A stretch of DNA of 20,699 bases from a virus: positions 1 to 20,699 of the IMG/VR virus record IMGVR_UViG_3300044648_000212; one strand, written 5' to 3'. Position 1 is the stretch's first letter. Every line of letters starts with the position of its first letter. This document shows, one piece after another, positions 1-14,708 of the stretch. The notes below the pieces were generated by a model. The model saw only the letters and a list, made by a program, of their open reading frames with translations, made no database searches and had not been told where the DNA came from. The translations under genes were made by a program, and so were the position numbers.

Positions 1-402
1 GACGAGTTACTTGACCTCTCCGACCACGGCTGGCGCATCACGAAATATAAAGACCATACCACCGTGGGAAAAGCGTATGCCACACATGACCTCGGGAAAG
101 CTGGTGATAACGCGGTTAAGGATGCCCTCGCCTCATACCAAGATAACGTTGTCATCAACCACACTCACCGTATGCAATTCAGGGTGGAAGGTAACGCCAA
201 AGGGGTTCCGCATGTCGGAGCATCGTTTGGTTGGCTTGGTGACGTTACGAAAGTCGATTATATGTACCGCGTGCGTGCCAATCGGGATTGGGCATTAGGC
301 TTTGGTGTCGGCCTGCTACGAGAGAACGGCATTATTTACCTAACACCAGTGCCTATTGTGCAGTACACCTGTGCGATTGGACTGGAACTATATGAGGTCT
401 AA
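1..402 (+). CDS. Calcineurin-like metallophosphoesterase, C-terminal part (5' truncated by window edge)
   Basis: The frame is open from base 1, so the gene begins outside the window and at least 133 residues are present. NHTHR matches the last metal-binding motif of calcineurin-like phosphoesterases (usually GHTHR). The preceding THDLGKAG and following GASFGWLGD segments fit the small phage members of this family, which hydrolyse phosphoesters using two metal ions. The N-terminal metal motifs (DxH, GDxxD, GNH) must lie upstream and cannot be checked. The substrate is unknown; phage versions could act on nucleotides or nucleic acid ends. The Asn replacing Gly in the GHTH motif is slightly unusual. 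A structured intergenic segment follows directly. Confidence 0.75.
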   Translation, partial: DELLDLSDHGWRITKYKDHTTVGKAYATHDLGKAGDNAVKDALASYQDNVVINHTHRMQFRVEGNAKGVPHVGASFGWLGDVTKVDYMYRVRANRDWALGFGVGLLRENGIIYLTPVPIVQYTCAIGLELYEV

Positions 403-955: not shown

Positions 956-1090
956 TTACCTGAGATCAGCTTCCACTATCGGCTTCTCATTCGCTTCGGA
1001 AACGAACATTGCTGTCGCCAGTACCGCTAAGAGTATACACACAGCCATCAGGACGCACAGGGCCACTTCACGAACGGTTATCTCTGTCAT
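956..1090 (-). CDS. Small membrane protein, 44 aa
   Basis: Reading leftward from ATG 1090, the protein starts MTEITVREVAL and then has one hydrophobic helix (about residues 9-30, VALCVLMAVCILLAVLATAM). A short acidic tail ends in EADLR. The ATG overlaps the integrase stop as ATGA, which suggests translational coupling. No function is recognisable. It is one of many single-span microproteins in this genome. Confidence 0.6.
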   Translation of the reverse strand: MTEITVREVALCVLMAVCILLAVLATAMFVSEANEKPIVEADLR

Positions 1091-1923
1091 GGTTGCACCC
1101 CCATGATTCTTCCCGCATTCGTTTCTAACGCCTTCTGGACTGGTGCTAAGTTCAGCCTAGTGTAGATCCCTGTGTTCGCCAGGGTAGTATGATTCAAGAC
1201 ACCCTTGCTAATCAAGGCGATATTTTCCCCATGGATAGCCAGCCAAGACGCACAGGTACGTCTGAGGTCGTGGATTGTCACATCAGGCAGGCCAGCGGCA
1301 CGGCGTATGCTTGTCCATCGGAGATGGGCTGCGCTCTTACTCCAGTGGCCTCGTTTGCTCGCAAAGACGTACTCATTATGATGAGTCAGTGCCTTGATGC
1401 GTTCTAACAAGGGGGTTGGGATGGGCACGGCATGTTTAATCCTGGTTTTGGTACGGTCCTTATGCCAAACGCCTCGAAAGAAATCAATGTCAGTCCATTG
1501 AATCGTGAGCCCTTCCATCTTCCGACAGCCCACCAGGAGGCAGAGGAGGAAATAGCACTGCCAATCCTCTGGCTCGGTACTGAGTACCTTAATGAGCAGG
1601 GGCATTTCCTCGGGCTGCACAAATCTGTCCCGTTCGTTCTTGGGATACTTTTTCACATTTCGGCACGGGTTGTCCCCTTCGTACATCTTCCAGTCTCTCG
1701 CCTTATCAAACATGGTGCGGAGAATGGACAGGCACTTATTGGCCTGGGACTTCGAGTGCTTCCCGATATTGTGATACCACTTCTCCACTATCAGGGGCGT
1801 CACGGCCTCGAGTGAATAGGGCTTGAGTGGGCCAAAGTATTTCGCAATGACCCATTCAAACTCTCGGCGTACCGAGAGATTGGCGACGTGACACTCCTTA
1901 AACTCCTGCATTAAAGCGTCCAT
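1087..1923 (-). CDS. int: Tyrosine-family site-specific recombinase (phage integrase)
   Basis: This 278-residue integrase would join attP and attB by strand exchange through a 3'-phosphotyrosine. The catalytic set is visible: R134 (VGCRKMEGL), K159 in the beta-hairpin (RTKTR), H218 and R221 (HDLRRT), H245 (LNHTT) and the nucleophile Y254 (GIYTRL). Residues 1-90 form the helical core-binding domain. The protein is shorter than the roughly 380-residue integrases because there is no clear N-terminal arm-binding domain. The start has GGAGG about 6 nt upstream. It is transcribed leftward from the same side as the RHH regulator, as expected for a lysogeny module, and a repeat-rich intergenic stretch sits just upstream of its start. 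Confidence 0.93.
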   Translation of the reverse strand: MDALMQEFKECHVANLSVRREFEWVIAKYFGPLKPYSLEAVTPLIVEKWYHNIGKHSKSQANKCLSILRTMFDKARDWKMYEGDNPCRNVKKYPKNERDRFVQPEEMPLLIKVLSTEPEDWQCYFLLCLLVGCRKMEGLTIQWTDIDFFRGVWHKDRTKTRIKHAVPIPTPLLERIKALTHHNEYVFASKRGHWSKSAAHLRWTSIRRAAGLPDVTIHDLRRTCASWLAIHGENIALISKGVLNHTTLANTGIYTRLNLAPVQKALETNAGRIMGVQP

Positions 1924-2881: not shown

Positions 2882-3097
2882 TCAGACCGCTGCATCCAAG
2901 CGGCGGCGGGACCGTTCATGAATAGGGTGCGATTGTTCCATTTCTAGTAGCGGTATAAATCTAATGAGAGCCTCTTTAATCATGCGGCTCTCACTCCACA
3001 TGGCATCCTGCTTGCGGATAGAAGCCATACGGCGCTTCAGATCCTTCGGCACATACCCAAAGACTTCAGCCGAGTGTTTGCTAATCATTCCCACCAT
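2882..3097 (-). CDS. Ribbon-helix-helix DNA-binding regulator, about 72 aa (likely repressor)
   Basis: The fold is read as a beta-strand (AEVFGYV), helix A (PKDLKRRMASIRKQ), a turn, and helix B (SESRMIKEALIRFIPLL), the Arc/CopG/MetJ pattern in which a dimeric ribbon contacts DNA. A basic tail (ERSRRRLDAAV) follows. AAGGAGG (3100-3106) lies 2, 5 or 11 nt before ATG 3097, GTG 3094 and ATG 3088, so the exact start is open. It is the first gene of the leftward operon and faces a second RHH gene across an operator-rich promoter region, as expected for an autoregulated lysogeny repressor. The repressor role is inferred from position. Confidence 0.75.
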   Translation of the reverse strand: MVGMISKHSAEVFGYVPKDLKRRMASIRKQDAMWSESRMIKEALIRFIPLLEMEQSHPIHERSRRRLDAAV

Positions 3098-3139
3098 CAC
3101 CTCCTTCCTGGCCTTGTAAGACAAAGTGTAAGACTAGAG

Positions 3140-3165
3140 TAGTACCGATACTAGTACCCTGTCAA
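3140..3165 (-). promoter_or_regulatory. Leftward promoter with overlapping GTACTA operators
   Basis: On the minus strand TTGACA (3165-3160) is followed by GTACTAGTAT (3157-3148) and GTACTA (3145-3140). The operator lies between the -35 box and the expected -10 position, where TACTCT is a poor hexamer about 18 nt downstream. A protein bound to the GTACTA half-sites would block polymerase. The downstream gene is the RHH regulator, so autorepression is the simplest reading. Confidence 0.6.
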
Positions 3166-3206
3166 GTGTGGGATTTACGTAACGGTCACTTTTATACAGA
3201 CAAAGG

Positions 3207-3254
3207 ACTTGACAAGGGTTCTCCCTTGGTGGTACTAGTACTACTCAAGTACTA
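3207..3254 (+). promoter_or_regulatory. Rightward promoter with palindromic GTACTAGTAC operator
   Basis: TTGACA (3209-3214) is followed, after an 18-nt spacer, by TACTAG (3233-3238, 4 of 6 matches to TATAAT). This -10 lies inside the perfect 10-bp palindrome GTACTAGTAC (3232-3241). A further GTACTA half-site lies at 3249-3254, just before the Shine-Dalgarno AAGGAGG. The same half-site occurs in the divergent promoter, so one regulator probably controls both. The rightward transcript begins with the 50-residue RHH gene and the early operon. Confidence 0.65.
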
Positions 3255-3267
3255 AGGAGGAACCCTG

Positions 3268-3420
3268 ATGCCAAAGCCACTGAAGCCCACCTCAATCAAG
3301 TTCACCGAACCACAAAAGCGATTCCTCAAGCATACGGCCAAAGCACAGGGCCATTGCAAAATCAGCGTCACCATTAAGCGACTCATAGACCGTGAGATGA
3401 ACCAAAACTCCGCAGCCTAA
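3268..3420 (+). CDS. Second ribbon-helix-helix protein, 50 aa (Cro-like position)
   Basis: ATG 3268 follows AAGGAGG with good spacing. A beta-strand (TSIKFTE) leads into helix A (PQKRFLKHTAKAQ), then a turn and strand (CKISV) and helix B (TIKRLIDREM), giving a minimal RHH fold with no extra domain. The protein is very basic. As first gene of the rightward transcript, opposite another RHH gene and beside shared operators, it occupies the place of Cro in lambdoid switches. It could instead be an antirepressor or a transcription activator of the early operon. The role is inferred from fold and position. Confidence 0.65.
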   Translation: MPKPLKPTSIKFTEPQKRFLKHTAKAQGHCKISVTIKRLIDREMNQNSAA

Positions 3421-3431
3421 GGAGGTGTCCA

Positions 3432-3542
3432 ATGTCGGACTTCCAACTAGGTATTTTACTCGGTGGTCCCGTCTGGTTCGCTGGTCTCGCATTCTTTAGC
3501 TACATCATGTTCACCGGCATGGTGAGAAGGGGGAAGCCATGA
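3432..3542 (+). CDS. Small membrane protein, 36 aa
   Basis: AAGGAGG precedes ATG 3432. After MSDFQLG comes one hydrophobic helix (residues 8-29, including PVWFAGLAFFSYIMF) and a basic tail, RRGKP, which predicts a cytoplasmic C-terminus. Its stop overlaps the next start as ATGA. No function is recognised. It opens a chain of three overlapping membrane microproteins. Confidence 0.6.
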   Translation: MSDFQLGILLGGPVWFAGLAFFSYIMFTGMVRRGKP

Positions 3543-3709
3543 AGCGAATCATTGGCCTCCTCATGTTCATCCTGCCGCTGATTGCCCTGACTGGCTACAT
3601 CACAATCGAGGTGTTGGGATGGCATGGGTTAGCCATGGATCTGACTGCGATTGGCGTTGGCTTCTACATATTTGTGTCGATGATTCTGACTATGGAGGAC
3701 TTTTTATGA
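3539..3709 (+). CDS. Two-span membrane protein, 56 aa
   Basis: ATG 3539 overlaps the previous stop, and an AGAAGGGGGAAG Shine-Dalgarno precedes it. Residues 4-24 (IIGLLMFILPLIALTGYI) and 34-52 (MDLTAIGVGFYIFVSMILT) form two hydrophobic helices joined by a short loop (EVLGWHG). The layout resembles small phage holin-like or superinfection-exclusion proteins, but its place in an early operon argues against a lysis role. Function unknown. Confidence 0.6.
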   Translation: MKRIIGLLMFILPLIALTGYITIEVLGWHGLAMDLTAIGVGFYIFVSMILTMEDFL

Positions 3710-3849
3710 CCGATTACGCCACCGATAAGCGTACTCAGTGGGTGAAGGAGGCTCAGGAAATCTCCTGGGTGGAAGTGATTGAGGCGAAGGACTTTGTGAT
3801 GATTCTGATTCTGCTCAATTTGATCTTGGCGATTCTGATACTGGCATGA
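3706..3849 (+). CDS. C-tail-anchored membrane protein, 47 aa
   Basis: ATG 3706 overlaps the previous stop. Shine-Dalgarno-like GGAGG lies inside the upstream gene about 9 nt before it. A charged soluble N-terminus (DYATDKRTQWVKEAQ and EVIEAKD) is followed by a strongly hydrophobic C-terminal helix (FVMILILLNLILAILILA) that ends at the stop. This is a tail-anchor arrangement. The role is unknown. It is the last of three coupled microproteins, before a structured stretch. Confidence 0.6.
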   Translation: MTDYATDKRTQWVKEAQEISWVEVIEAKDFVMILILLNLILAILILA

Positions 3850-4070
3850 GACACGGCACGGAAGGCGTGGGAGGAGGCGGGGCTACTCTACCGCGACTCG
3901 CCCCTACTAGTGGGGAACAGCCTAGAGCCGTAACCAGTCGGCACCGTGTCGCCTTTGAGGGTTGGCCGTACATATCCCTTGAAACGGCCTCGCTGTCCGA
4001 CAGCAGCGATCAGGAGAGGTCACGGCTTCTTAGTGTTACCTCACCCGGGATGCTAGGGAGCCGTACCTTC
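3850..4070 (+). ncRNA. Candidate structured RNA, about 220 nt
   Basis: This stretch has at least seven ordered inverted repeats. GACACGG (3850-3856) pairs with CCGTGTC (3944-3950) and encloses CACG/CGTG (3857-3860, 3866-3869), CTCTA/TAGAG (3886-3890, 3923-3927) and CCCC/GGGG (3901-3904, 3912-3915). Then come GGCCGT/ACGGCC (3964-3969, 3984-3989), GCTGT/ACAGC (3992-3996, 4000-4004) and GGT-c-ACGGCT (4018-4027) with AGCCGTACC (4059-4067). A 75-codon frame spans it (3846-4073), but its Gly/Ser/Arg-rich product has no recognisable fold and no Shine-Dalgarno. I therefore favour noncoding RNA or a long structured leader for the gene at 4083. No known RNA family is recognised. Confidence 0.45.
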
Positions 4071-4082
4071 TAGGGAGGAATT

Positions 4083-4175
4083 ATGGCTACGCTCATTACA
4101 GTAGGAATACTTATAGCCTTGGTTGGTTTCGGGTTTCTCTTGGGATTCATTTATGCGTGCAAGGTATGCCCCTGA
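4083..4175 (+). CDS. Tiny membrane peptide, 30 aa
   Basis: A strong Shine-Dalgarno (AGGGAGGAA) precedes ATG 4083. The peptide is almost entirely one transmembrane helix (ITVGILIALVGFGFLLGFIY) ending in ACKVCP, with two Cys at the membrane edge. Function unknown. The excellent ribosome site makes translation likely despite its size. Confidence 0.55.
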   Translation: MATLITVGILIALVGFGFLLGFIYACKVCP

Positions 4176-4177
4176 TT

Positions 4178-4300
4178 ATGAGTGAGAAGCCTGTTACGGA
4201 CCGCAAGTATCGTCAAGCCAGACGGCGTAGTGCTCGCAAGAATGCCATGAATAAGTTAGCCAGAAACGTGTGGAAGAAGTTGGAGGTCAAGAAGCCATGA
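4178..4300 (+). CDS. Highly basic small protein, 40 aa
   Basis: It begins MSEKPVTDRKYRQARRR and continues SARKNAMNKLARNVWKKLE, so about 40% of residues are Lys or Arg. It is probably a helical nucleic-acid binder. It starts 2 nt after the previous stop, and its own stop overlaps the zinc-ribbon start as ATGA. No clear Shine-Dalgarno is visible, so coupling is assumed. No function is recognised. Confidence 0.5.
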   Translation: MSEKPVTDRKYRQARRRSARKNAMNKLARNVWKKLEVKKP

Positions 4301-4476
4301 AAGACTACGAAATGCATTATGTAGACGGCAAGCTGCTGATTCATACCTACAAACAAATCACCTGTCGCAAGTGTCGGTCTGGGCATTACTTCTTTGAGAA
4401 TTACCACGGTCAAACGGTCTGCGTAGCCTGTAGGGGCGAAGAGGAAGGGAGGAGGAAACGTGAGCGGATTAGCTAA
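4297..4476 (+). CDS. Zinc-ribbon protein, 59 aa
   Basis: ATG 4297 has GGAGG 10 nt upstream inside the preceding gene, which favours it over an in-frame GTG at 4270. The protein holds two CxxC knuckles, ITCRKCRSG and VCVACRG, about 20 residues apart, separated by aromatic residues (HYFFENYHG): a classic four-Cys zinc ribbon. A very basic tail (EEEGRRKRERIS) follows. It probably binds DNA, RNA or protein; phage zinc ribbons of this size often have regulatory roles. Its tail overlaps the next membrane peptide gene. Confidence 0.65.
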   Translation: MKDYEMHYVDGKLLIHTYKQITCRKCRSGHYFFENYHGQTVCVACRGEEEGRRKRERIS

Positions 4477-4558
4477 GGCGAGATTGCTAGTCATTCTATT
4501 ACTCCTCGGCTGGTTATTCTCAGTTCTCTACGCCTTGCTCTACATGGGGGTGCGCTGA
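4460..4558 (+). CDS. Tiny membrane peptide, 32 aa (GTG start)
   Basis: GGGAGGAGG lies just upstream of GTG 4460, inside the zinc-ribbon gene. After VSGLAKAR comes one hydrophobic helix (LLVILLLLGWLFSVLYALLY) and the tail MGVR. Its TGA shares a base with the next ATG. Function unknown. Confidence 0.5.
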   Translation: MSGLAKARLLVILLLLGWLFSVLYALLYMGVR

Positions 4559-4779
4559 TGCCAAACGGTAGCAGATGGACGGATCACTGCCTGTCACAGT
4601 TCCGACGCTATTCGACCACCATACGGGCTGAGTTATTCGCTGAAGCTCGCCGGCCAGTGGAGTCGTTGAGCGAGGCCCATGTGGACTGGTTACGGGAACA
4701 GATGGTGATACAGAACAGGCTTCGATACGAGATTAAGTCACATCATGCGGAAGGGAGCTTCAATGTCGAGGCCGACTGA
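4558..4779 (+). CDS. Hypothetical protein, 73 aa
   Basis: ATG 4558 has GGGGG 8 nt upstream and overlaps the previous stop (TGATG). The protein is soluble and helical with many charges (RWTDHCLSQFRRYSTTIRAE, EAHVDWLREQM). No motif is recognised. It overlaps the start of the PD-(D/E)XK nuclease by 17 nt, so it belongs to the recombination operon. Confidence 0.6.
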   Translation: MPNGSRWTDHCLSQFRRYSTTIRAELFAEARRPVESLSEAHVDWLREQMVIQNRLRYEIKSHHAEGSFNVEAD

Positions 4780-5419
4780 TGGCTATAAGATTGACGGTGA
4801 GCGGGTGCCGGGAGTGACGACAGTAATTAGCCGCTTCAAGCCCAGCGGTGGTCTCATCCACTGGGCATGGTGTCAGGGCCGTGATGGGAAGGACTATCGG
4901 GAAACCCGTGATGCTGCGGCTGATGCTGGCACCATCGCGCATGACATGGTGGAGGCAGATATTTATGGGGCAACGTTCGATACGAGCAAATACGAGCCAG
5001 ACATCATTCTCAAAGCCGCAGGCGCATTCAAAGCCTACAAAGAGTGGCGGGAGCAAACACAGCTTGAAGTCGCCGAAGCGGAAATCAGCCTCCTCTCCAC
5101 AGTGCATCGTTTTGGTGGGACACTTGACGCTCTCTTCATACGAGGCAATCTTGCGCTCGGGGATTGGAAAACAAGTAATTCCGTCTATGCCGATTATCTC
5201 ATTCAGCTTGGTGCCTACGCTATCCTTTGGGAGGAGAACTATCCAACTCGACCGATCACTGGTGGGTTCCATCTCCTGCGATTTAGCAAACAAGAGTGTC
5301 AAGATGATCCTGTCTCCTTCTCCCATCACTACTGGTCAAACCTCGACCTAGCTAAAGAACAGTTCCTGCTTTACCGCCGTGCTTACGACATTGATAAACG
5401 ATTAAGCAAACTCGTCTAA
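4763..5419 (+). CDS. PD-(D/E)XK superfamily nuclease (RecB/Cas4-like phage exonuclease)
   Basis: The motif order fits the PD-(D/E)XK fold: GTIAHDMVE (residues 56-64, with the conserved His of RecB/Cas4-like members), D122 (GGTLDAL), D134-x-K136 (GDWKTS) and the QLGAY box (148-152). No Cys cluster for an iron-sulfur site is visible, so a plain exonuclease is more likely than Cas4 itself. I chose ATG 4763 because GGGAG lies about 6 nt upstream; an earlier GTG-type start at 4745 would add six residues. The next gene encodes a putative annealing protein, so the pair probably acts like lambda Exo-Bet, with end resection followed by strand annealing. The annealing pair is inferred from synteny. Confidence 0.8.
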   Translation: MSRPTDGYKIDGERVPGVTTVISRFKPSGGLIHWAWCQGRDGKDYRETRDAAADAGTIAHDMVEADIYGATFDTSKYEPDIILKAAGAFKAYKEWREQTQLEVAEAEISLLSTVHRFGGTLDALFIRGNLALGDWKTSNSVYADYLIQLGAYAILWEENYPTRPITGGFHLLRFSKQECQDDPVSFSHHYWSNLDLAKEQFLLYRRAYDIDKRLSKLV

Positions 5420-5428
5420 GGAGGACGC

Positions 5429-6322
5429 ATGACCACAGCCGTAGCGACGACCAATAATCAAGTGCAGGTGCCAGCCGATCTACAGGAGAAGGCGTTATTA
5501 GGTGGGGATCTCTCGAAGCTCTCATCCAGTGAACGCCTCTCATTCTATAACTCAGTCTGTACCAGCCTTGGCTTGAATCCTTTAACGCGCCCTTTCGAGT
5601 ATATCCAACTTAACGGCAAGCTCACGTTGTATGCGAGGAAGGATTGCACTGAGCAGTTACGCAGCAATCGCCATATCAGTATTGAGATTGCCTCAAGGGA
5701 AATCGTTGATGGTGTCTATGTGGTCAGGGCTAAGGCTACGCAAACGGCGGTCAGTCAGCTGCAACAGTACAGTGTTCCACGTACTGACGAATCCCTTGGA
5801 GCCGTTGCCATTACTGGATTGAACGGTGAAGCCAAAGCCAATGCCATGATGAAGGCTGAGACGAAGGCGAAACGTAGAGTCACGCTCTCTATCTGCGGCT
5901 TAGGCATGTTGGATGAGACGGAGATTGAAACCATACCGGGAGCGAAGGTCGTTGCTGACCATCTGCCTGGTTCAGCAAAGAATCCGATCTACGATCCCAC
6001 ACAATCACTTAATGCTCCCATAGCAAAGCCAGAGAACGGACCTGTAACGCAGCTGCCTCCTGCTGCCGTTGCCCCTCCACAAGCACAGGATAGCTCTGGC
6101 CCCTATATCGTCAAGATTGGCCGGCAGAAGAATATGCCGGTGACGCAGCTCTCCGATGAGAACTTATCCTGGGTGCTCGGTTATTACCTCGACAAAATCA
6201 GAGACATGCCAAACAGCAAGTTCATGGACGAATGGGAAACAGCAGTGATGGCCCTGCAGGAAGAGAAGGATAAGCGCACCGATTTCAACCGGGAGGCTGA
6301 AGATGCGATGCCCCAAATGTAG
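5429..6322 (+). CDS. Putative single-strand annealing recombinase (RecT/Erf/Rad52-like), 297 aa
   Basis: AAGGAGG precedes ATG 5429. Residues 32-165 form the core: SERLSFYNSVCTSLGLNP, then a beta-rich stretch with LNGKLTLYARKDCTEQLR, and KAETKAKRRVTLSICGLG at 142-159. I recognise this as a phage protein type usually found next to exonucleases. The AETKAKRR segment resembles the AxTRAxxRAL signature of annealing proteins. A Pro-rich linker (about 190-220) leads to a small C-terminal domain (residues 225-290). The annealing role is inferred from context and partial motif resemblance; the family assignment needs a profile search. Confidence 0.6.
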   Translation: MTTAVATTNNQVQVPADLQEKALLGGDLSKLSSSERLSFYNSVCTSLGLNPLTRPFEYIQLNGKLTLYARKDCTEQLRSNRHISIEIASREIVDGVYVVRAKATQTAVSQLQQYSVPRTDESLGAVAITGLNGEAKANAMMKAETKAKRRVTLSICGLGMLDETEIETIPGAKVVADHLPGSAKNPIYDPTQSLNAPIAKPENGPVTQLPPAAVAPPQAQDSSGPYIVKIGRQKNMPVTQLSDENLSWVLGYYLDKIRDMPNSKFMDEWETAVMALQEEKDKRTDFNREAEDAMPQM

Positions 6323-6542
6323 TGGCTTAATTGTCCTGAATCACGATGAATGGCTGTGCCTGAACTGCTCGTATCGGCCGGCGAATGATATACGGCCGGT
6401 CTTTCGTGAGCGGCTTCGCTGTTACTATTGCAATAAGCAACCGCCCGACCTTGAGCGTAGCAACCTCGCCTGTGGTCCCTGTCTCACGAAGCAAGCCAAC
6501 TACAAGCGCAAGAAATTGGTGGGGGTAAGTGATGACGTTTAA
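6303..6542 (+). CDS. Double zinc-ribbon protein, 79 aa
   Basis: GGAGG lies 6 nt before ATG 6303, which overlaps the previous gene by 20 nt. Two four-Cys units are visible: MRCPKCSG with CLNC (residues 3-22) and LRCYYCNK with CGPC (residues 39-60). A basic tail (KQANYKRKK) follows. A duplicated ribbon suggests nucleic-acid binding in the recombination operon; phage proteins of this kind are usually of unknown function. It overlaps the RusA start by 11 nt. Confidence 0.65.
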   Translation: MRCPKCSGLIVLNHDEWLCLNCSYRPANDIRPVFRERLRCYYCNKQPPDLERSNLACGPCLTKQANYKRKKLVGVSDDV

Positions 6543-6915
6543 GCTACTTGGGAACCTACCGAGTGGAAAGAATCGAATCATAGTGACGCGAACAGGAAAG
6601 CGTTTCCCTGACCCTAAGAGCAGGTTCCCTGGTTGGCGAGACGATGCCATGAAGCAATTAGCCGCACAGATGAGTGTCATTGATAAGCCGTACAAGAATT
6701 ACCCATTCACCCATAAATGCAAGCTAGTCGTGGATTACACCCCAGCTGATGCCAGAGTGCGCGATGTAGACGGCATGTTGAGTGCGTTATGTCATGTCCT
6801 GGCCAAGGCCGGAATCGTCAAAGACGATGGCTTAATCCGCGATGTGGAATGGCATGAGTTCCCCATAGACCGTGAGCAGCCTATGGCGGTGGTGACGATA
6901 CGGAGGCTGGCATGA
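6532..6915 (+). CDS. rusA: RusA-family Holliday junction resolvase
   Basis: The 127-residue length is that of RusA. The acidic cluster RDVDGMLSALCHVLAKAG followed by KDDGLIRDVEWHE matches the RusA active site (DxDN...DD), which binds metal and cuts four-way junctions symmetrically. The usual DxDN is DVDG here, a mild change. GTG 6529 directly precedes ATG 6532 and either may serve; GGGGG lies just upstream. It would resolve branched DNA made by the upstream exonuclease and annealing protein before packaging. Its stop overlaps the next start as ATGA. Confidence 0.85.
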   Translation: MTFKLLGNLPSGKNRIIVTRTGKRFPDPKSRFPGWRDDAMKQLAAQMSVIDKPYKNYPFTHKCKLVVDYTPADARVRDVDGMLSALCHVLAKAGIVKDDGLIRDVEWHEFPIDREQPMAVVTIRRLA

Positions 6916-7112
6916 GCAATGATACGCACGCATATATCGGTACAAGGCCATGCGGCTGCACCGTGGCAGTCTGCGTGGATATGGTAGATACGCCGAAAAC
7001 TACAGCCAAAGGTGTGTCAGAGATGATTCGCAATGGCTACGCTGTCACACGGCATCCACTTACTGAACTGCATGACGGCACGATTAAGCTACAACACTGT
7101 GAGCATCAATGA
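6912..7112 (+). CDS. Small Cys-containing phage protein, 66 aa
   Basis: It begins MSNDTHAYIGTRPCGC and continues TVAVCVDM, a beta-rich start, then has a helix (TTAKGVSEMIRNGYAVTRH) and ends in LQHCEHQ. The CGC and a late Cys-His pair could bind metal. It resembles a common small phage protein of unknown function that starts YIGxCxCG. It is coupled to its neighbours by ATGA overlaps on both sides. Confidence 0.6.
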   Translation: MSNDTHAYIGTRPCGCTVAVCVDMVDTPKTTAKGVSEMIRNGYAVTRHPLTELHDGTIKLQHCEHQ

Positions 7113-7252
7113 CCGCTAACGCCTTTGTCTATCTGATGATGACGCTCAATGCCTGTGCCTCCATCGCCTATGTGTGGCAGGGGGAGCCGTGGCGAGCGGT
7201 TTACTGGGCAGCGGCGTTTACGTTGAACCTCTGCGTGGTCAATCTCAAATGA
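7109..7252 (+). CDS. Two-span membrane microprotein, 47 aa
   Basis: ATG 7109 overlaps the upstream stop, and TGA 7250-7252 overlaps the methyltransferase ATG at 7249, so it sits exactly between two genes. Residues 5-21 ([17 protein letters not shown]) and 29-45 ([15 protein letters not shown]) are hydrophobic, joined by WQGEPWR. It may exist mainly to couple translation, or may be a real membrane factor. Function unknown. Confidence 0.55.
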
Positions 7253-8181
7253 GCCTCCCTAAGCCCTATTACGAAGAGAACGGCATTGTGATTTACAACG
7301 CTGATTGTCGTGAAATCCTCCCCCATTTAGCCCCAGTGGATTTGGTGCTGACTGACCCGCCGTATGGGGTGAGGGATGACCAGTCATGGGACGCCTTAGA
7401 TCAATATGAATTTGCCCGTGTCTCTATGGACTGGATGAGCGGAGCTAAGGGCCTAGCCAGTTCCTTCCTTGTGTTCTCAGTATCATCTGGCCCAATGCGC
7501 CATATCTGTGAACTGCTATTCCCTAAGGTGCGTCAAATCATTTGGCATAAGCCAGAAGGCAGCCAATACACTGGAGCAAGTGAAGCAAAGCTCTGGTATG
7601 CCCACGAAACCATATTCCATTGCCATGACGGTTCAACGTGGGAAGTGGTGCTACCGAAAGCTAGGCGGCTCGCCTCCATATTAAAGGCTGCAAGGGAGAC
7701 GGCTGGCCTGTCGCGTGGTGCTGTTGATATTGCCATCAGGGGCAAGCGTACTGGCCTATGCTATCGGTGGGAAGAGGCGGCATGTATTCCGACCAATGAA
7801 CAGGCCGAACAGCTCAAGGCGCTGTTACGCTTAAATGGTGAGTTTAGCGAGGCTCTACAAGAGGCGTATAGCTCTAGGGATATAGTCCTAGAGAAAGCCG
7901 CAGAGAAAGCCGCAGAGAAAGCCGCAGAGAAAACTGACGTACTGTCTCACCGCACCATAACAAGCCCGCTCCATCCTTGTGAAAAGCCAGTAGGCTTGCT
8001 TTCCGATTTGCTCCTTACTGTTGGCTATGAAGCTGGCACCATCCTAGACCCCTTCATGGGTTCAGGCACTACGCTACGAGCGGCGAAGGATCTAGGCAGG
8101 AAGGCCATTGGTATAGAGATTGAGGAGAAGTATTGCGAGATAGCAGCAAAGCGGTTGGCTCAGGAAGTGTTGCCATTATAG
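7249..8181 (+). CDS. DNA methyltransferase (N6-adenine/N4-cytosine) with inserted HTH-like domain
   Basis: This 310-residue enzyme has motif IV TDPPYG (residues 35-40) before motif [10 protein letters not shown] (267-275), the beta-class order of solitary or phage methyltransferases. Motif X-like HPCEKPVGL (242-250) is also present. Between them, residues 140-198 ([20 protein letters not shown] ... [16 protein letters not shown]) look like an XRE helix-turn-helix rather than a usual target recognition domain. A four-copy EKAA repeat (215-227) follows as a linker. I chose ATG 7249 by its overlap with the upstream TGA; a GTG at 7174 would add 25 poor residues. It probably protects phage DNA from restriction or marks origins. 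Target sequence unknown. Confidence 0.85.
7891..7932 (+). repeat. 12-bp tandem repeat inside methyltransferase gene
   Basis: GAGAAAGCCGCA is repeated three times exactly, followed by a partial fourth copy (GAGAAA). It encodes the EKAA linker between the HTH-like insert and the C-terminal catalytic half. In-frame copy-number change would only alter linker length. Confidence 0.9.
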
Positions 8182-8189
8182 GAGTCTGA

Positions 8190-8942
8190 ATGCCTGCTAA
8201 ATTTCTCTCCATTAAGAACTTTGAGAAGTATCAGAAGACCAAAGAGAAGGACGGTAATAGACCATGGATCAAATTATGGAAGACGATTTTGAGCGATCCT
8301 GAGTTTATGAACCTGTCCCCACATGACCGTTTTCTCTACATCGGTCTTCTACTTTTAGCCGACGACACCAACAATAAGATATACGCGGACCATACATACC
8401 TTAGACAGAGACTATACATGACACATACAGATGGCATACACGGGGAATACATTGGGCATACAAAACTTAACCTAAGTGCGCTATATCGTTCAGGACTGCT
8501 AAACACATCAAATTTAAGTAGGGTGCTCTCAGAGACAGAGGCAGAGACAGAGGAGAGACAGAGTACAGCTCACGCTGTGGTGTTAGTGGATTTTGATACG
8601 TTCTGGGAACAGTACCCGAGAAAGGTCAGTAAGCAGCAAGCGGTCAAAGCCTGGAAGTCACTCAACCCTGACCACACCCTACTGACCACGATGCTGCAAG
8701 CGCTCGAGAAGCAGAAGCGCTCTGAGCAATGGCAGAAGGACCATGGCAAGTTCATTCCCCATGCGGCTACCTGGCTCAACGGCAAACGCTGGGAGGATGA
8801 ATTAACGCCTAAATACTCACCGCCTGAAGTGCGTAAGCCTGCGGTGATTGTAGACATTCAGCCGCAAATGCCGACGATTGGCAAGGATGAAGCGAGCAGT
8901 ATACTCAAGCGATTAGGCATGACCAGCGTGGGGGAATTATGA
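8190..8942 (+). CDS. Phage replication initiation protein (O/DnaD-like), 250 aa
   Basis: TAGGAG precedes ATG 8190. Residues 1-75 (WIKLWKTILSDPEFMNLSP, then DRFLYIGLLLLADDTNN) match the winged-helix start of phage replication organisers. A variable acidic linker (TEAETEERQS, about 115-125) follows. Residues 133-205 (FDTFWEQYPRKVSKQQAVKA and FIPHAATWLNGKRWEDE) form the C-terminal domain common in these proteins. They bind the origin and recruit host helicase. No helicase loader or polymerase gene is visible in the window. Direct repeats inside the gene may be the origin, as in lambda O. Confidence 0.75.
   Translation: MPAKFLSIKNFEKYQKTKEKDGNRPWIKLWKTILSDPEFMNLSPHDRFLYIGLLLLADDTNNKIYADHTYLRQRLYMTHTDGIHGEYIGHTKLNLSALYRSGLLNTSNLSRVLSETEAETEERQSTAHAVVLVDFDTFWEQYPRKVSKQQAVKAWKSLNPDHTLLTTMLQALEKQKRSEQWQKDHGKFIPHAATWLNGKRWEDELTPKYSPPEVRKPAVIVDIQPQMPTIGKDEASSILKRLGMTSVGEL
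8531..8563 (+). repeat. Three direct repeats AGAGACAGAG within the replication gene
   Basis: AGAGACAGAG occurs at 8531-8540, 8543-8552 and 8554-8563, in the segment encoding the acidic linker of the replication protein. In lambda the origin iterons lie inside gene O at a comparable place, so these may be initiator binding sites. The spacing (12 then 11 bp) is close to one helical turn. They could also simply reflect a low-complexity linker (ETEAETEE). Confidence 0.5.
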
Positions 8943-9037
8943 CTAAACGAGTTGTGATGTGGGCCGATCTAGGGGACTTGGAAATGGCGAAATGGCTGTA
9001 TGACGATGCGAAGAAAGCCATAAGGAGAAAGCGATGA
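8939..9037 (+). CDS. Small hypothetical protein, 32 aa
   Basis: It reads MTKRVVMWADLGDLEMAKWL, then YDDAKKAIRRKR. It is soluble and ends in a basic helix. ATGA overlaps occur with both neighbours, which supports translation as part of the chain. The upstream gene offers GGGGGA as Shine-Dalgarno. No function is recognised. Confidence 0.5.
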   Translation: MTKRVVMWADLGDLEMAKWLYDDAKKAIRRKR

Positions 9038-9732
9038 GTGAGATATTAACCGAAGAACAATACGAGGCGCTGATAGATGACATATTTGGAGATTACTATT
9101 CTGAAGCAACCGAAAAGTTTATTGATGCTTACCGCGCCCTGCACAGCCAGGTGGAGGAGTTGAAGCGTGAGCGGGACAAGTTCAGGGAGGAAACTAAATC
9201 GGCGTCGTTGCAATTCAGTCGATGTGACTTAATTTTCGAGCGTGTAGGTATCGTCCCTCAAGGAGATACTGAATTAGGTCTGCGTCAGTTCTTTGTGAAG
9301 TACCAAGATGTAGAGCGCCAACTGACCGCAGCCCAAGCCAGAATCACGGCGCTGGAGGCTGTCATAGCGAAGCAGCAGTTTAGCATTGAAGATTTATCAA
9401 AGGAACATACCAAGCAAGCGAACAGGGCAACGCAACTGGAAGGGGCGCTGAAGGATGTGATGGCTTTGGTAGACAGAGGCGTACTAGTCCGAAATACCCA
9501 GTCGGATAGTGATGTCATAGCCTTTATGAAGCAGAGCGTCGAGTTAGCGAAGGTCTTACAGCAAGCCCAGCACGCCCTGACGCCTGAGATGCTGAAGAAT
9601 GCAGTGCGTAAGACGTTAGAGCGGGATAATCAATTAGGGCCAGATCGAGGGGTGTACCGCGAATGGTGCCGTGACCCGAAGCTGTGCGAAGGGAAGAACT
9701 ACTGCCCCAAGAAACCCACCTGTGCCGATTAG
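9034..9732 (+). CDS. Coiled-coil protein with C-terminal Cys cluster, 232 aa
   Basis: AAGGAGAAAG precedes ATG 9034. After a short acidic N-terminus (TEEQYEALIDDIFGDYY), residues 37-60 (HSQVEELKRERDKFREE) and 93-145 (ERQLTAAQARITALEAV onward) have heptad character. The last 30 residues hold four Cys (WCRDPKLCEGKNYC and KPTC), possibly one zinc site. No enzymatic motif is seen. It is the last gene before a control region. A structural or regulatory role is possible, but the function is unknown. Confidence 0.65.
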   Translation: MSEILTEEQYEALIDDIFGDYYSEATEKFIDAYRALHSQVEELKRERDKFREETKSASLQFSRCDLIFERVGIVPQGDTELGLRQFFVKYQDVERQLTAAQARITALEAVIAKQQFSIEDLSKEHTKQANRATQLEGALKDVMALVDRGVLVRNTQSDSDVIAFMKQSVELAKVLQQAQHALTPEMLKNAVRKTLERDNQLGPDRGVYREWCRDPKLCEGKNYCPKKPTCAD

Positions 9733-9888
9733 CTGTCAAGTAAAATCTTTATCAACGAATACAGAAATTAACACTTGACAAACGAAAATAAACCTGTATG
9801 CACGTTCTTGAGCATCATTCTGTTCTGAGCAACTAGCGAAGAACAGCCTAGCTGAAAGCGTTATCCCTTGAGTGACAAAATATCCAAG
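9733..9888 (+). promoter_or_regulatory. AT-rich control region with promoter and hairpin
   Basis: The gap contains an inverted pair TGTCAAGT (9733-9740) and ACTTGACA (9773-9780). On the plus strand TTGACA (9775-9780) is followed, 16 nt on, by TATGCA (9797-9802), a plausible sigma70-type promoter for the packaging and accessory genes. Downstream, CTGTTCT (9820-9826) pairs with AGAACAG (9840-9846) as a 7-bp hairpin with a 13-base loop. The stretch 9740-9795 is clearly AT-rich compared with neighbours. TTATCAACG (about 9750-9758) faintly resembles a DnaA box. No gene is visible before 9868/9889. Confidence 0.5.
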
Positions 9889-10032
9889 ATGACGAAAGAG
9901 CAATGGTTCAAACACTCAAGGAAAGCATTTGAGAGAGTGAATAAGGAAGGAAAGAATAGAGTTGGATGCAAGGTCAGTTCTACCAAGCAAGCTCTACGAG
10001 GACTACAACGACTGAAGGAGCTGGGATTGTGA
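9889..10032 (+). CDS. Basic small protein, 47 aa (start uncertain)
   Basis: It starts MTKEQWFKHSRKAFERV and ends QALRGLQRLKELGL, with about 30% Lys/Arg. A TTG at 9868 in the same frame would add seven residues (MSDKISK). Neither start has a strong Shine-Dalgarno. The sequence looks like a small helical DNA-binding or virion-associated protein, but no family is recognised. Its stop overlaps the next GTG start. Confidence 0.45.
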   Translation: MTKEQWFKHSRKAFERVNKEGKNRVGCKVSSTKQALRGLQRLKELGL

Positions 10033-10100
10033 GTGCTGCCTTATTCATCATTGCGTTCTTCATCGTTGTGGCTATTGTCCTTGATTACTACTTCAGCTAA
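10029..10100 (+). CDS. Tiny membrane peptide, 23 aa (GTG start)
   Basis: AAGGAG lies 8 nt before GTG 10029, which overlaps the previous TGA as GTGA. The peptide VSAALFIIAFFIVVAIVLDY followed by YFS is one transmembrane helix with almost no soluble part. Function unknown. It ends 3 nt before the small terminase start and may serve for coupling. Confidence 0.4.
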   Translation: MSAALFIIAFFIVVAIVLDYYFS

Positions 10101-10103
10101 CCA

Positions 10104-10565
10104 ATGCCAACTGAGCTAATGCCTAAAGAAGAGAAGTCCGTAACGAAGCGTATTGATGTCGCTAAGGCATTGAAACTCAGAGTGCAGGGGAACACGTATG
10201 AAGAGATAGCTATTGTGTTCGGAGTGACTAAGGGAGCGGTACACGCTGCGTTGAACAAGTTTGAATCCTTCCTCACTGATGCTGGACAGCCAGGAGTTCT
10301 ACAAGCATTTCAAGACAATAGGGGGCATCTGCTGACAGCCATTGAGATGCGCTTGATGCGGTCCATGGTAGACGAAGAGGCCATTTCAAAAGCCACGCTC
10401 AACAACCGAGCGTATGCATTTCAGCAGATCCATGCAGCTCGAAGACTCGAAGAGGGCAAATCAACAGAGAATGTGAGTGTTCTGGGTAAGCTCATCCTGT
10501 CGGCAGAGGACAACCTAGGGAATACTAAGGGCAAAGCCTCTGCATCTGATCCTGAGACCAAGTAG
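10104..10565 (+). CDS. Small terminase subunit candidate, HTH protein, 153 aa
   Basis: Residues 17-50 (RIDVAKALKLRVQGNTYEEI, then FGVTKGAVHAALNKF) form a helix-turn-helix typical of terminase small subunits and homeodomain-like recombinases. The helical middle part (HLLTAIEMRLMRSMVDEEAI) could be the oligomerisation region, and a Ser/Glu-rich tail follows. A small terminase of this size normally binds the pac or cos site and loads the large subunit. It lies about 5 kb from the large terminase because an accessory cassette lies between. No clear Shine-Dalgarno is seen; an in-frame ATG at 10119 is an alternative start. A transcription regulator is the other possibility. Confidence 0.6.
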   Translation: MPTELMPKEEKSVTKRIDVAKALKLRVQGNTYEEIAIVFGVTKGAVHAALNKFESFLTDAGQPGVLQAFQDNRGHLLTAIEMRLMRSMVDEEAISKATLNNRAYAFQQIHAARRLEEGKSTENVSVLGKLILSAEDNLGNTKGKASASDPETK

Positions 10566-10633
10566 CCCAAAGCTAGGGTTATTTGCGTCACGCATTGCAT
10601 CTCATTGATAGATAAGCAAAGCCAGTGGATAGT

Positions 10634-10783
10634 ATGCGCTACACTGTGCAAATGGGGTTGAGCTGGCTGGTGATCGGACTATGGCCAGCGGGTCCCCTTT
10701 CCCGCTCAGTATTTGGCCGGCTACGGGGGGAAATCCATTCGCTGGAGCTAGAGCAGGTCATGCGGAGAAGTTTTGCTAGCTAA
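10634..10783 (+). CDS. Possible small protein, 49 aa
   Basis: The frame reads MRYTVQMGLSWLVIGLWPAG and then a basic amphipathic part (RSVFGRLRGE, QVMRRSFAS). Its Shine-Dalgarno is poor (GTGGAT). A perfect hairpin, AGCGGG (10687-10692) with CCCGCT (10701-10706), lies within it, enclosed by GGCC pairs (10683, 10715). The stretch could therefore be a structured untranslated leader for the Acb2-like gene instead of coding. Confidence 0.3.
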   Translation: MRYTVQMGLSWLVIGLWPAGPLSRSVFGRLRGEIHSLELEQVMRRSFAS

Positions 10784-10811
10784 AATTCTTCACTTACCTA
10801 AAAGGAGCTAT

Positions 10812-11030
10812 ATGGAAAGCACTTCAGATGAACGAGTAGTGAATAACGTTATGCGCCATCAGTACAAAGTTCTTAGCGAGATTGAGAAGGCGCAAATCGG
10901 TAAGGTGAAAGATTTAGGGCTCACATTCCATGAGTTCTGTGCTCATCTTGGAAAGTCACGCGAGTTGTCGTTAGCGGCTACGAAGATCGAAGAAGCGGTG
11001 ATGTGGGCCGTGAAGCATATTTCCGGCTAA
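10812..11030 (+). CDS. acb2: Acb2-like anti-CBASS cyclic-nucleotide sponge, 72 aa
   Basis: AAAAGGAG precedes ATG 10812. The helical hairpin HQYKVLSEIEKAQIGKVKDLG, then SRELSLAATKIEEAVMWAVK, matches the Acb2 (Tad1-hairpin) family of phage proteins. These form hexamers and bind cyclic di- and trinucleotides, so that CBASS effectors are not activated. Y18 and K33 are 15 residues apart, the same spacing as the ligand-binding Tyr and Lys I recall for Pseudomonas phage Acb2 (Y11 and K26). The typical C-terminal SRELSxAxTKxEEAVMWAVKHI is intact and the length is normal. It would act in the cytoplasm during infection. Ligand preference cannot be read from sequence. An upstream in-frame TTG at 10773 is less likely. 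Confidence 0.85.
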   Translation: MESTSDERVVNNVMRHQYKVLSEIEKAQIGKVKDLGLTFHEFCAHLGKSRELSLAATKIEEAVMWAVKHISG

Positions 11031-11057
11031 AATTTCTTCCTCACTAAAAAGGCCCTA

Positions 11058-11183
11058 ATGTCTTGCTTCCTGTTGAGCATATTCGGTGTTGCCCTGGCAG
11101 TGTTTTTCTACGTACTCGGTGTGGCTGTTGTGAGGGAGTTGATTAAGCAGCAAGCACAGTTTGATCGGGTAGTGAAGAAATGA
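11058..11183 (+). CDS. Small membrane protein, 41 aa
   Basis: AAAAAGG lies about 6 nt before ATG 11058. Residues 2-25 (SCFLLSIFGVALAVFFYVLG) form one transmembrane helix, followed by a short helical tail (RELIKQQAQFDRVVKK). The N-out, C-in orientation predicted by the basic tail resembles other single-span phage peptides. Its stop overlaps the next start as ATGA. Function unknown. Confidence 0.55.
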   Translation: MSCFLLSIFGVALAVFFYVLGVAVVRELIKQQAQFDRVVKK

Positions 11184-11431
11184 GCCTCTGGGACCGTCAT
11201 TCCACGAAGCAATGTGACCCCTTGTCGTGCTGGTACTGCCTGCATCCTGAGCATGATTACTACTGCAATCTGTATTTTCCTGAGAATTGGCAGGCGAAGA
11301 AGCGTAAGGAACGTAGGGTGGACGTAAGCGCGAATCAGCGTCCAACGGGTGGGCTTAGCGGCTCACCCGGCCCAGAAAGCCTCACGAAGGCCCCTAATAG
11401 CCCCGTAGAGCCTTTATCTGAAGGAGAATGA
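11180..11431 (+). CDS. Cys- and Pro-rich hypothetical protein, 83 aa
   Basis: The N-terminal half has a Cys/His/aromatic cluster (QCDPLSCWYCLHPEHDYYC, residues 11-29) that could bind zinc. The C-terminal half is low-complexity and Pro/Ser/Gly-rich (GGLSGSPGPESLTK), probably disordered. Start and stop fit the operon, but the tail composition is odd enough that the true protein could be shorter. Function unknown. Confidence 0.45.
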   Translation: MSLWDRHSTKQCDPLSCWYCLHPEHDYYCNLYFPENWQAKKRKERRVDVSANQRPTGGLSGSPGPESLTKAPNSPVEPLSEGE

Positions 11432-11435
11432 CCTA

Positions 11436-11642
11436 ATGCTTATCTTCCTGGTGTTTCTGCTTATAACGGCCTGTGCGCCTCTTCACTGTGCCGATGGCTT
11501 ACCGCCGCATGTACGGGAAGAGTTGGGCTGCCCACCCCAAATGCCCGTACAGCCCTTCCGCTGCTTTGATGCCTTCGGCAAGGAAGTGCCCTGTATTGAA
11601 GAAATGGACTGCCATGAGGAGCCGAAGGGGAAGGAGTTGTGA
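11436..11642 (+). CDS. Predicted small lipoprotein, 68 aa
   Basis: The signal MLIFLVFLLITAC carries a lipobox (ITAC), so Cys13 would be lipidated and the mature protein anchored facing the periplasm. The mature part has further Cys and many Pro (GLPPHVREELGCPPQMP; CFDAFGKEVPC), with four Cys that could form disulfides. Size and Pro content recall Rz1-type outer-membrane spanins, but no Rz partner is visible next to it and the location is not a lysis cassette. A surface-exclusion lipoprotein is the alternative. Confidence 0.5.
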   Translation: MLIFLVFLLITACAPLHCADGLPPHVREELGCPPQMPVQPFRCFDAFGKEVPCIEEMDCHEEPKGKEL

Positions 11643-12025
11643 AGGTACGGCATAAGGTCAGTGGGAAGGTGGCTGAGGTGCTTGAGGAGTCCCCGCGTTT
11701 CTTTCTGATTCATTGGGGCGAGGAGATGCCGTTGCTGTATACCGATGCATGGCTCAAGGCTGATTGCGTGATTCACCCCACCGAGACCTGGCGTGATGTG
11801 ACGGGGGAATGTGAGGTACAGCCTAACGGAGAAATTTGGCACAAGCACAAGAATGGGTGCGTAACTAACGCAACGTATTATTCCGTGTTCTCAGACCCGG
11901 CTGGCTACCGCCTCCGCAAGGTGCAGGTGATGCAACCAGAAGGTGCTGTGGTGAAGGCTGATGGAATGTTCGGCACGCAATGTCTCGTTACAGACGCCTT
12001 CATCGTGGAGAAGCGTGAGCCATGA
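11639..12025 (+). CDS. Hypothetical protein, 128 aa
   Basis: GGGGAAGGAG precedes GTG 11639, which overlaps the upstream TGA. The first 40 residues (MKVRHKVSGKVAEVLEESPR) look like a small SH3-like beta fold; a second part (GECEVQPNGEIWHKHKNGC) is also beta-rich with Cys and His. No family is recognised. Its TGA overlaps the start of the NeuB-like gene as ATGA, so it could be the first member of the cassette. Confidence 0.55.
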   Translation: MKVRHKVSGKVAEVLEESPRFFLIHWGEEMPLLYTDAWLKADCVIHPTETWRDVTGECEVQPNGEIWHKHKNGCVTNATYYSVFSDPAGYRLRKVQVMQPEGAVVKADGMFGTQCLVTDAFIVEKREP

Positions 12026-12855
12026 GCGAAACGTACAAAACGTACATAATAGCCGAAATCGGGATTAATCATAACGGGTCGTTAGATTTAGCCAAGAGGT
12101 TAATAGATGCCGCGAAAGAAGCGGGGTGTGATGCCGTCAAGTTCCAGAAGCGGACGATTGAAGCGGTCTACACGAAAGAGGAGCTTGAGAAGCCGCGAAG
12201 TTCCCCTTTTGGGACCACAAACGGTGACCTCAAGCGAGCTTTGGAATTTGATCGTGGACACTATGAGACCCTATTCGCGTATTCCAAAGAAGCCGGTCTT
12301 GATTGCTCGGCTAGCTGCTGGGACGAAGATAGTGTACGGCTAATCGCCTCCTTCAATCCCCCCTGGCTCAAAATCCCCTCCGCATTGATTACCAACAGGC
12401 CGTTATTGGAGGCGTATGCCAAAACTGGCATAAAACTGTATCTCTCTACTGGCATGTCTACGGCCGAGGAGGTGTCTGATGCGATGCTCTACCTTGACGC
12501 GAAAGGCTGTGATGTATTCCCCCTTGCCTGTACGAGTACATACCCGTGTGCTCCCAGCGAACTCAACTTGCTCTATGTGCGAACTCTCATCGGTCTATAC
12601 GGACGGGCGGGGTTTTCTAGTCATTGTGTATCGCCTTGGCCAGTCCTCGGTGCGGTTGCGCTTGGGGCCACAGTTGTCGAAGCCCACCTTACGCTTGATC
12701 GCACATCGTTTGGATCGGATCAGGCAGCAAGCCTTGAACCTAAAGCATTTGCCAAGATGGTGGAAGAAATCAGAACGCTCGAAACGGCGTTAGGCACAGG
12801 GGAGAAGGTGGTCTATCCCAGTGAAATTCCGGTGAGGGAGAAGCTGAGACGATGA
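12022..12855 (+). CDS. NeuB/SpsE-family nonulosonate synthase-like enzyme, 277 aa
   Basis: The family condenses phosphoenolpyruvate with a hexosamine (for example ManNAc) to give sialic, legionaminic or pseudaminic acid. The TIM-barrel motifs are present: AEIGINHNG (11-19), AVKFQ (38-42, K40), LKIPSA (116-121, K117, S120), LSTGMST (141-147), the metal-binding His201 (GFSSHC, normally GLSDHT) and His222 (VEAHLTLDR), and GSDQAASLEP (231-240). The length is short: the C-terminal SAF/antifreeze domain of typical 340-residue NeuB is missing. That domain contributes a sugar-contacting Arg, so the substrate may differ. It is the first enzyme of a four-enzyme cassette in the packaging region, coupled to neighbours by ATGA overlaps. 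Confidence 0.85.
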   Translation: MSETYKTYIIAEIGINHNGSLDLAKRLIDAAKEAGCDAVKFQKRTIEAVYTKEELEKPRSSPFGTTNGDLKRALEFDRGHYETLFAYSKEAGLDCSASCWDEDSVRLIASFNPPWLKIPSALITNRPLLEAYAKTGIKLYLSTGMSTAEEVSDAMLYLDAKGCDVFPLACTSTYPCAPSELNLLYVRTLIGLYGRAGFSSHCVSPWPVLGAVALGATVVEAHLTLDRTSFGSDQAASLEPKAFAKMVEEIRTLETALGTGEKVVYPSEIPVREKLRR

Positions 12856-13013
12856 TTAAATCAATTCTTGATGCTGGTCTCGGTCTGTTCTTGCTTGTCG
12901 GTGGAATCTACACCGCCTATCACTATGAATCACAACTTACTTACTTCCAGGCCGTGACGATGTTGACTGGTGCCTGTTATTGGTTCGATGAAGCGAAGAG
13001 AGACTTGGAATGA
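12852..13013 (+). CDS. Membrane microprotein within the cassette, 53 aa
   Basis: ATG 12852 overlaps the stop of the NeuB-like gene and its own TGA overlaps the aminotransferase ATG. Hydrophobic segments are at residues 4-22 (SILDAGLGLFLLVGGIYTA) and more weakly 31-44 (YFQAVTMLTGACYW). A charged end (DEAKRDLE) follows. It might tether the pathway to the membrane or merely couple translation. No function is recognised. Confidence 0.5.
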   Translation: MIKSILDAGLGLFLLVGGIYTAYHYESQLTYFQAVTMLTGACYWFDEAKRDLE

Positions 13014-13936: not shown

Positions 13937-14708
13937 TATCGAGCTAACTAGTAAGTGCGACAAGACGCACCTCTGCCCCATGTGCGGCCATCAGAATCCT
14001 GATGTGAACCCTATTACCTACGGAGATATGGATGTACGGTTACTCGCAAACATACGGAGCCAGTTGCAACCTGGAATTACCATCTCCTTCCATAGAGACG
14101 GTGAACCGACAGCGCATCCAAGATTGCGAGATTGCTTGGAACTCTTTAGTGGATTCACTACGTCTCTTGTTACTCACGGGCTTAATCTCGAAACGCTCTG
14201 GGAGGAAATTGTTGGGCGATGTACTACAGTTACGGTCTCGGTATTCCGTGGCGATAAAGACGCAGAAGCGCAGATGCGAAGCATTAAAGGATTTCTGCGT
14301 AATAAAGGCTCCCGCCTCCCGCAAGTCCAAGTCAAAATCGTTGGCGACATGCTCCAAGACGGCATTGAAGAGTACGAAGCGTTAGGCGTTCGGGTGATAC
14401 GGAGGCTTATTCATGTCCCGATTGATAACAGCAAGTATGCTCATCGCGCTCCGGTGGTGCCAGAAGTTGGAATCTGCCTTGACGCATTGCATCGTCCAAC
14501 GATTGCTCAAGACGGGCGTATGTATCTTTGTAACCGGCTCGATGCTCAAGGACATGGATACATCGGAGACGCTAACACAGAAACACTCGAATCCATCTGG
14601 AACGGACCGACACGGCAACGCATGATTGAAGCGCATAAGGCGGGACGGAGGGACTTAGCCAATCCGTTATGTGCAACCTGTAAACACTGGGGCACTCCAA
14701 GTGCTTGA
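13911..14708 (+). CDS. Radical SAM enzyme with CX5CX2C motif and SPASM-like tail, 265 aa
   Basis: C16, C22 and C25 (SKCDKTHLCPMCG) would hold the [4Fe-4S] cluster that cleaves S-adenosylmethionine, but the spacing is CX5CX2C instead of the usual CX3CX2C. DGEPTAHP (63-70) corresponds to the GGE motif that contacts SAM. C189, C207, C254 and C257 resemble a SPASM/twitch auxiliary-cluster domain found in peptide- and sugar-modifying enzymes. I chose ATG 13911, with GGATGGG upstream, because the longer frame from 13734 only reads through the aminotransferase gene out of frame. It probably does a radical rearrangement, epimerisation or dehydrogenation on an intermediate of the cassette pathway; the substrate is unknown. 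Confidence 0.8.
   Translation: MLSGLAQLNIELTSKCDKTHLCPMCGHQNPDVNPITYGDMDVRLLANIRSQLQPGITISFHRDGEPTAHPRLRDCLELFSGFTTSLVTHGLNLETLWEEIVGRCTTVTVSVFRGDKDAEAQMRSIKGFLRNKGSRLPQVQVKIVGDMLQDGIEEYEALGVRVIRRLIHVPIDNSKYAHRAPVVPEVGICLDALHRPTIAQDGRMYLCNRLDAQGHGYIGDANTETLESIWNGPTRQRMIEAHKAGRRDLANPLCATCKHWGTPSA

Follow-up and report, generated by a model that had tools for sequence, protein, structure and literature searches.

Phage RNAs that act through their own folds are known in several forms. RNase III hairpins occupy intercistronic positions in the early region of phage T7, and where a very stable stem separates phage early genes, its most ordinary role is as a site of message processing or stability. 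GOLLD and ROOL are large phage-associated structured RNAs. With put elements of the HK022 type, termination is suppressed through the zinc-binding domain of the RNA polymerase beta-prime subunit. The putRNAs are about 70 nt long, form two stem-loops and lie promoter-proximal in early operons, according to the sections of PMC9378689 that deal with them. The locus described here carries an element of three adjacent hairpins among the small early genes of a phage, which we present as a candidate for a new structured RNA belonging to a narrow group of phages. Annotation easily mistakes small structured RNAs in such operons for short open reading frames, and a search of the open-access literature found no published description of this one.

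The window, by which we mean the whole stretch of DNA analysed, is the full 20,699-base virus record IMGVR_UViG_3300044648_000212 (positions 1 to 20,699, one strand), and its source is an uncultured temperate phage. The genes that define the setting are as follows.

1087-1923, minus strand: integrase
3706-3849, plus strand: upstream 47-residue microprotein gene (MTDYATDKR...), its product called a membrane protein from its sequence
4083-4175, plus strand: downstream 30-residue microprotein gene, its product likewise called a membrane protein
4178-4300, plus strand: conserved gene for a basic 40-residue product (MSEKPVTDRKYRQARRRS...)
4745-5419: exonuclease-like gene
5429-6322: recombinase-like gene
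7174-8181: methyltransferase
15464-17002: terminase
17348-19462: portal

The early operon appears to start near 3210-3260, where a promoter was placed by eye, and continues as a series of tiny genes. Ahead of the early genes, the region 3133-3250 contains inverted and palindromic repeats with TAGTAC/GTACTA that have the appearance of a repressor operator. The recombinase-like product of 5429-6322 has no match among the protein family models, and our reading of it as RecT-like is based on its position beside the exonuclease gene. The methyltransferase has a central helix-turn-helix-like stretch (noted by eye) and a repeated AEKA run between its methylase motifs, and directly before the terminase gene, at 12022-15464, genes for NeuB, a class IV aminotransferase, a SPASM iron-sulphur protein and a cytidylyltransferase form a sugar-modification-like block that perhaps serves surface modification.

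An initial annotation of this DNA had placed the structured site between membrane microprotein genes of the early operon, and this is indeed where it lies, the flanking genes being those at 3706-3849 and 4083-4175. The first of these has protein-like substitution (pS 0.20-0.52, pN 0.03-0.18), as has the basic gene at 4178-4300 (pS 0.24-0.48 and pN 0.01-0.08 when its first 34 codons are compared across the four phages that carry the element); the gene at 4083-4175 is not conserved, and its position is taken by other genes in the relatives. Between the two microprotein genes we distinguish the following parts.

3846-4073, plus strand: overlapping open frame of 75 codons, its start overlapping the upstream stop codon (ATGA) and its TAG stop overlapping the next Shine-Dalgarno sequence
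3850-3950, plus strand: proposed first domain, closed by GACACGG (3850-3856) and CCGTGTC (3944-3950), unsupported as a structured unit
3959-4072, plus strand: core structured RNA element of 114 nt, comprising three adjacent hairpins and a linker (covariance model score 99.9 bits, shuffle z -4.26)
3964-3989, plus strand: hairpin 1, GGCCGT/ACGGCC, with conserved loop bases TATCC..TGAAA
3990-4009, plus strand: hairpin 2, TCGCTGT/GCAGCGA, with loop CCGACA
4010-4016, plus strand: linker TCAGGAG, identical in all four copies
4017-4068, plus strand: hairpin 3, AGGT-c-ACGGCTTCTTAGTG with TGCTAGGGAGCCGT-ACCT, with an inner loop containing ACCTCACC

The core folds at -51.5 kcal/mol; its dinucleotide shuffles average -36.3, and none of 500 was as low; the same is true of the copy in a related viral contig, L002 (z -5.46, 0 of 500). 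Hairpin 3 consists of 18 near-continuous pairs with a single bulged C and contains the second closing stem that had been proposed from the letters, AGGT-c-ACGGCT at 4017-4027 with AGCCGTACCT at 4059-4068. It ranks first among all 54-nt folds of the window (both strands, in steps of 2), first among the local 54-nt folds of L002 and of a second relative, L050, and second in a third, L039. Taken whole, the 241 nt of 3840-4080 are unremarkable (z -1.18, with 25 of 200 shuffles equally stable). Stability by itself is not decisive, because other 114-nt segments of the record reach z values of -3 or below (12 of 1084 sampled, at 40 shuffles each, a setting at which the core has z -3.53) or a lower raw energy (one of 6862, at 4819 inside the exonuclease gene). 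Two places on the minus strand, 609-760 and 1787-1900, hold 114-nt segments with z values stronger than that of the core (-5.65 and -5.04, respectively).

The initial annotation had seen one ordered series of hairpins resembling a structured phage RNA, a description that survives for its second domain, with its low z score, compensatory changes and non-protein-like substitution, and is not supported for its first. The letters of the 7-bp stem said to close 3850-3950 are present there, and the enclosed sequence was set aside as a structured RNA for want of support, having a z of -0.71 (119 of 500 shuffles as stable) and an L039 counterpart with z -0.86. This part is missing from L002 and L050, and L039 has a different sequence in its place, the local similarity between the window and L039 versions being matched by 168 of 1000 shuffles. 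As a curiosity, closing stems occur in both.

Relatives were retrieved with recombinase and exonuclease protein searches and with DNA patterns. The core is carried by the three viral contigs L002, L039 and L050, all from the same single metagenome; 17-nt exact, gapped and 16-nt exact patterns run against viral contigs returned these three and chance hits only, and a 20-nt pattern from the first domain returned no match. A covariance model, R1, built from L002 and L039, which are identical over the core, matches the window with an E value of 2.5e-20. Run on 39 viral records, the window counted, it detects the core in 4; among 11 portal-bearing records it detects one, that of L050 once more. The scoring run took 47 loci and the window, with duplicates and the chance-hit loci of the pattern searches set aside; the latter, scored separately, gave no R1 match. 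The upstream microprotein gene is present in 4 of 12 close records, precisely the four that have the RNA, and every record that shows this part of the operon has the element, in a sample of four phages whose records are possibly fragments.

Beyond these records the core had no match in the phage collection or in plasmids. Rfam gave no match anywhere in the window at the gathering score and, with E values up to 5, two chance-level hits on the window's minus strand only and none in L039; ARAGORN found no tRNA or tmRNA gene in the window. The genomes searched with R1 were likewise without a match (0 of 288, 0 of 398 and 0 of 6), counts that carry little information in a search not guided by a known host, and a terminase search of genomes matched 3 of 282, at no more than 37% identity, which is uninformative as to the host.

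Two observations concern the history of these phages more generally. Window positions 1-402 are 97% identical to L002:758-1159, against 79-91% for the remaining shared stretches on the upstream side of the element, a pattern that points to mosaic exchange between these phages. At L039:341-826, within the run of early microprotein genes, lies a gene for an HNH endonuclease with an AP2-like domain (HNH_3, E 1.1e-10), and because the window has a different small gene at that place, homing or insertion at the locus is suggested.

The cores of L002, L039 and L050 have zero differences over 111 nt, and the small genes that the same three contigs share are 72-94% identical with pS of 0.20-0.69. The edges of the identical block coincide sharply with the borders of the element; to its left L050 has different genes, and to its right there are three kinds of gene across the four phages. 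The window copy differs from the other three at 15 aligned bases, of which 11 lie in paired columns, and by a 3-nt insertion, and keeps 34 of the 35 pairs. In hairpin 1, three of the six stem pairs have changed on both sides relative to the other copies (GGTGCT/AGCACC) and are still paired. Hairpin 2 is invariant in all four copies, and for that reason its covariation is neutral on pairing, while in hairpin 3 four one-sided changes (G-C to G-U or U-A to U-G, in one direction or the other) are still paired and one inner pair is broken. Changes that keep a pair by altering both of its sides, as expected of a conserved structured RNA, thus number three, alongside the four one-sided changes and the broken pair, between two distinct sequences.

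Pair counts and substitution trials used four rows comprising these two distinct sequences. As many pairs survived random substitution at the same sites in 187 of 200000 trials; with a transition bias of 60% the figure was 2951 of 200000, and with substitution at random sites 233 of 50,000. Of 500 shuffles within columns, 69 attained the observed counts. When the partners were slid by 1-3 columns, at most 53% stayed paired, versus 98.6% in the true register, a comparison that is biased toward the fold because the structure was derived from the same sequences. Alignment A5 holds the seven matches of the model, three of which, with E values of 3.1-6, are excluded from A7. The covariation is thin because the core is represented by just two distinct versions.

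The strands of the window core are also unequal, the plus strand having the z of -4.26 given above and the minus strand one of -0.44. A DNA hairpin or recombination site was considered and is disfavoured by this poor reverse-strand fold and by the four changes in hairpin 3, which keep G-U pairs in the sense of the transcript; the rejection is not absolute, because the reverse strand of the L002 core folds well too (z -3.01).

The conservation of the region could also be laid to the open frame at 3846-4073, if this were a genuine gene for a small protein whose N-terminus varies, its structure incidental or secondary and its identical copies the result of co-occurring phages having recently exchanged DNA. 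All four phages keep the frame open and in phase (75, 39, 76 and 44 codons). It starts on the upstream stop codon (ATGA in three, TTGA in one) and extends to the ribosome-binding site or start of the next gene, or close to it, and the N-terminal part in L039 has a coding-like codon score (0.104 in frame 0, versus -0.541 and -0.142), all of which speaks for a gene; the two variable first-domain parts stay open in 0.15 and 0.20 of shuffles, before phase factors of 1/3. The initial annotation, which made no mention of the frame staying open in all four phages, had called its composition non-protein-like, and this is borne out for the second domain, where the core has a lower codon score than 110 of 111 gene chunks in the window and than every one of the 111 in L002. 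Between the window and L002 the core has pS 0.14 and pN 0.15, so that the synonymous excess and gene-like codon use of a protein gene are both lacking, unlike in the neighbouring genes, which are protein-like with pN well below pS. The frame product has no match in protein family searches, the changes in the core preserve pairing, and recent exchange would not be expected to stop precisely at hairpin borders. It had been suggested at the outset that protein-like, synonymous substitution in homologues, with no compensatory base changes, would speak against an RNA; what the homologues have is pN equal to pS in comparison with the window, no synonymous change among the relatives, and compensation. 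We consider the small-protein account unlikely.

Because related phages keep the three-hairpin fold, we regard the element as a new small structured RNA and not as an ordinary protein gene; that 3959-4072 is a structured RNA is highly probable. Translation through it is nonetheless not to be dismissed, because the frame is open in all four phages, and it is likely that ribosomes pass through the element in some form or that a short peptide is made.

A regulatory RNA role is possible, and the account of it that we favour, in which the element acts in cis, is put forward tentatively, as a whole and with its mechanism at somewhat less than an even chance. The segment 3959-4072 would be transcribed on the plus strand within the early polycistronic message and would fold autonomously, and it would act in cis on that transcript, most likely as a barrier that serves processing or stability. 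Cleavage or binding at hairpin 3 would separate the upstream from the downstream parts of the message, and from the length and stability of its stem this hairpin may be an RNase III processing site. A pure processing hairpin leaves the retention of hairpins 1 and 2 unexplained; stacked ahead of hairpin 3, these could form a recognised platform, and the invariance of hairpin 2 and the linker together with the preservation of hairpin 1 suggests a bound factor. The frame is probably kept open so that stop-start-coupled ribosomes run on to the next gene without stalling or loss.

A translational attenuator would be another way of acting in cis, with GGAGAGGT pairing with ACCTCACC in place of hairpin 3. 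In its favour, the two pairings exclude each other and both alternative strands are invariant, but the alternative costs about 7-10 kcal/mol, the fold has no consistent effect on access to the downstream ribosome-binding site (z +0.28, -2.42, -0.85 and +0.18 in the four phages), and the gene that would be controlled differs among relatives, making this very improbable. Since the downstream ribosome-binding site is neither consistently hidden nor exposed and the alternative pairing is costly, the element is best treated as an autonomous unit.

Such autonomy would also suit an element that is excised from the early message to act in trans as a small RNA, whether regulator, sponge or decoy, and so constitutes an RNA accessory gene among protein ones. 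Folding independently of its neighbours, remaining while the genes on both sides change, and having unpaired linker and loop letters that are invariant or nearly so all point that way. Against it, the region 2900-12000 offers no promoter or terminator of its own above chance, and a conserved antisense target is lacking: searches within these phages gave chance-level 10-11-mers only, and the sole site shared by the window and L002 falls in a homologous stretch of 97% identity, where it carries no information. On the decoy or anti-defence role put forward in the initial annotation the results fall on neither side; the defence gene models had no match to the small neighbours tested. On balance we hold action in trans to be a minor though real possibility.

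A processive antitermination element like the HK022 putRNA, letting RNA polymerase read the long early operon, was the remaining role weighed. A multi-hairpin RNA of about 110 nt on the sense strand of an early operon is like putRNA as it appears in the relevant sections of PMC9378689. The architecture and position are nevertheless not those of an HK022-type put, since the element has three hairpins in 114 nt and lies about 0.75 kb past the apparent operon start, not promoter-proximal; it is also without a DNA match in the phage collection. Because terminator-like sites in 2900-12000 (one on the plus strand) do not exceed chance, there is nothing obvious to read through, and antitermination is decidedly unlikely.

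A broader proposal is that of a new class of phage accessory RNA, a three-hairpin cassette kept letter for letter amid changing genes, with a frame compatible with translation, that would act in trans on a host target such as the polymerase, the ribosome or a defence component; we think this rather unlikely. Should the element prove to act on host polymerase, nucleases or defence, the small proteins that dominate this field would be joined by an RNA. The element is now precisely delimited at 114 nt, has a fold and a way of testing coding versus structure, and can be cloned and assayed.

Among described systems, the HK022 putRNA shares with the element a compact multi-hairpin form and a place on the sense strand of the early operon in a temperate phage; it differs in having two stem-loops in about 70 nt near promoters, as characterised in those sections of PMC9378689, whereas the element has three hairpins in 114 nt and lies in mid-operon. 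GOLLD and ROOL are likewise structured RNAs of phage or prophage genomes that are not themselves protein genes, but the element is far smaller and belongs to no matching Rfam family. With the T7-type RNase III hairpins it has in common that a long and highly stable stem separates small early genes, and it departs from them in its two preceding hairpins, in an invariance that extends beyond the stem, and in an open frame that runs throughout.
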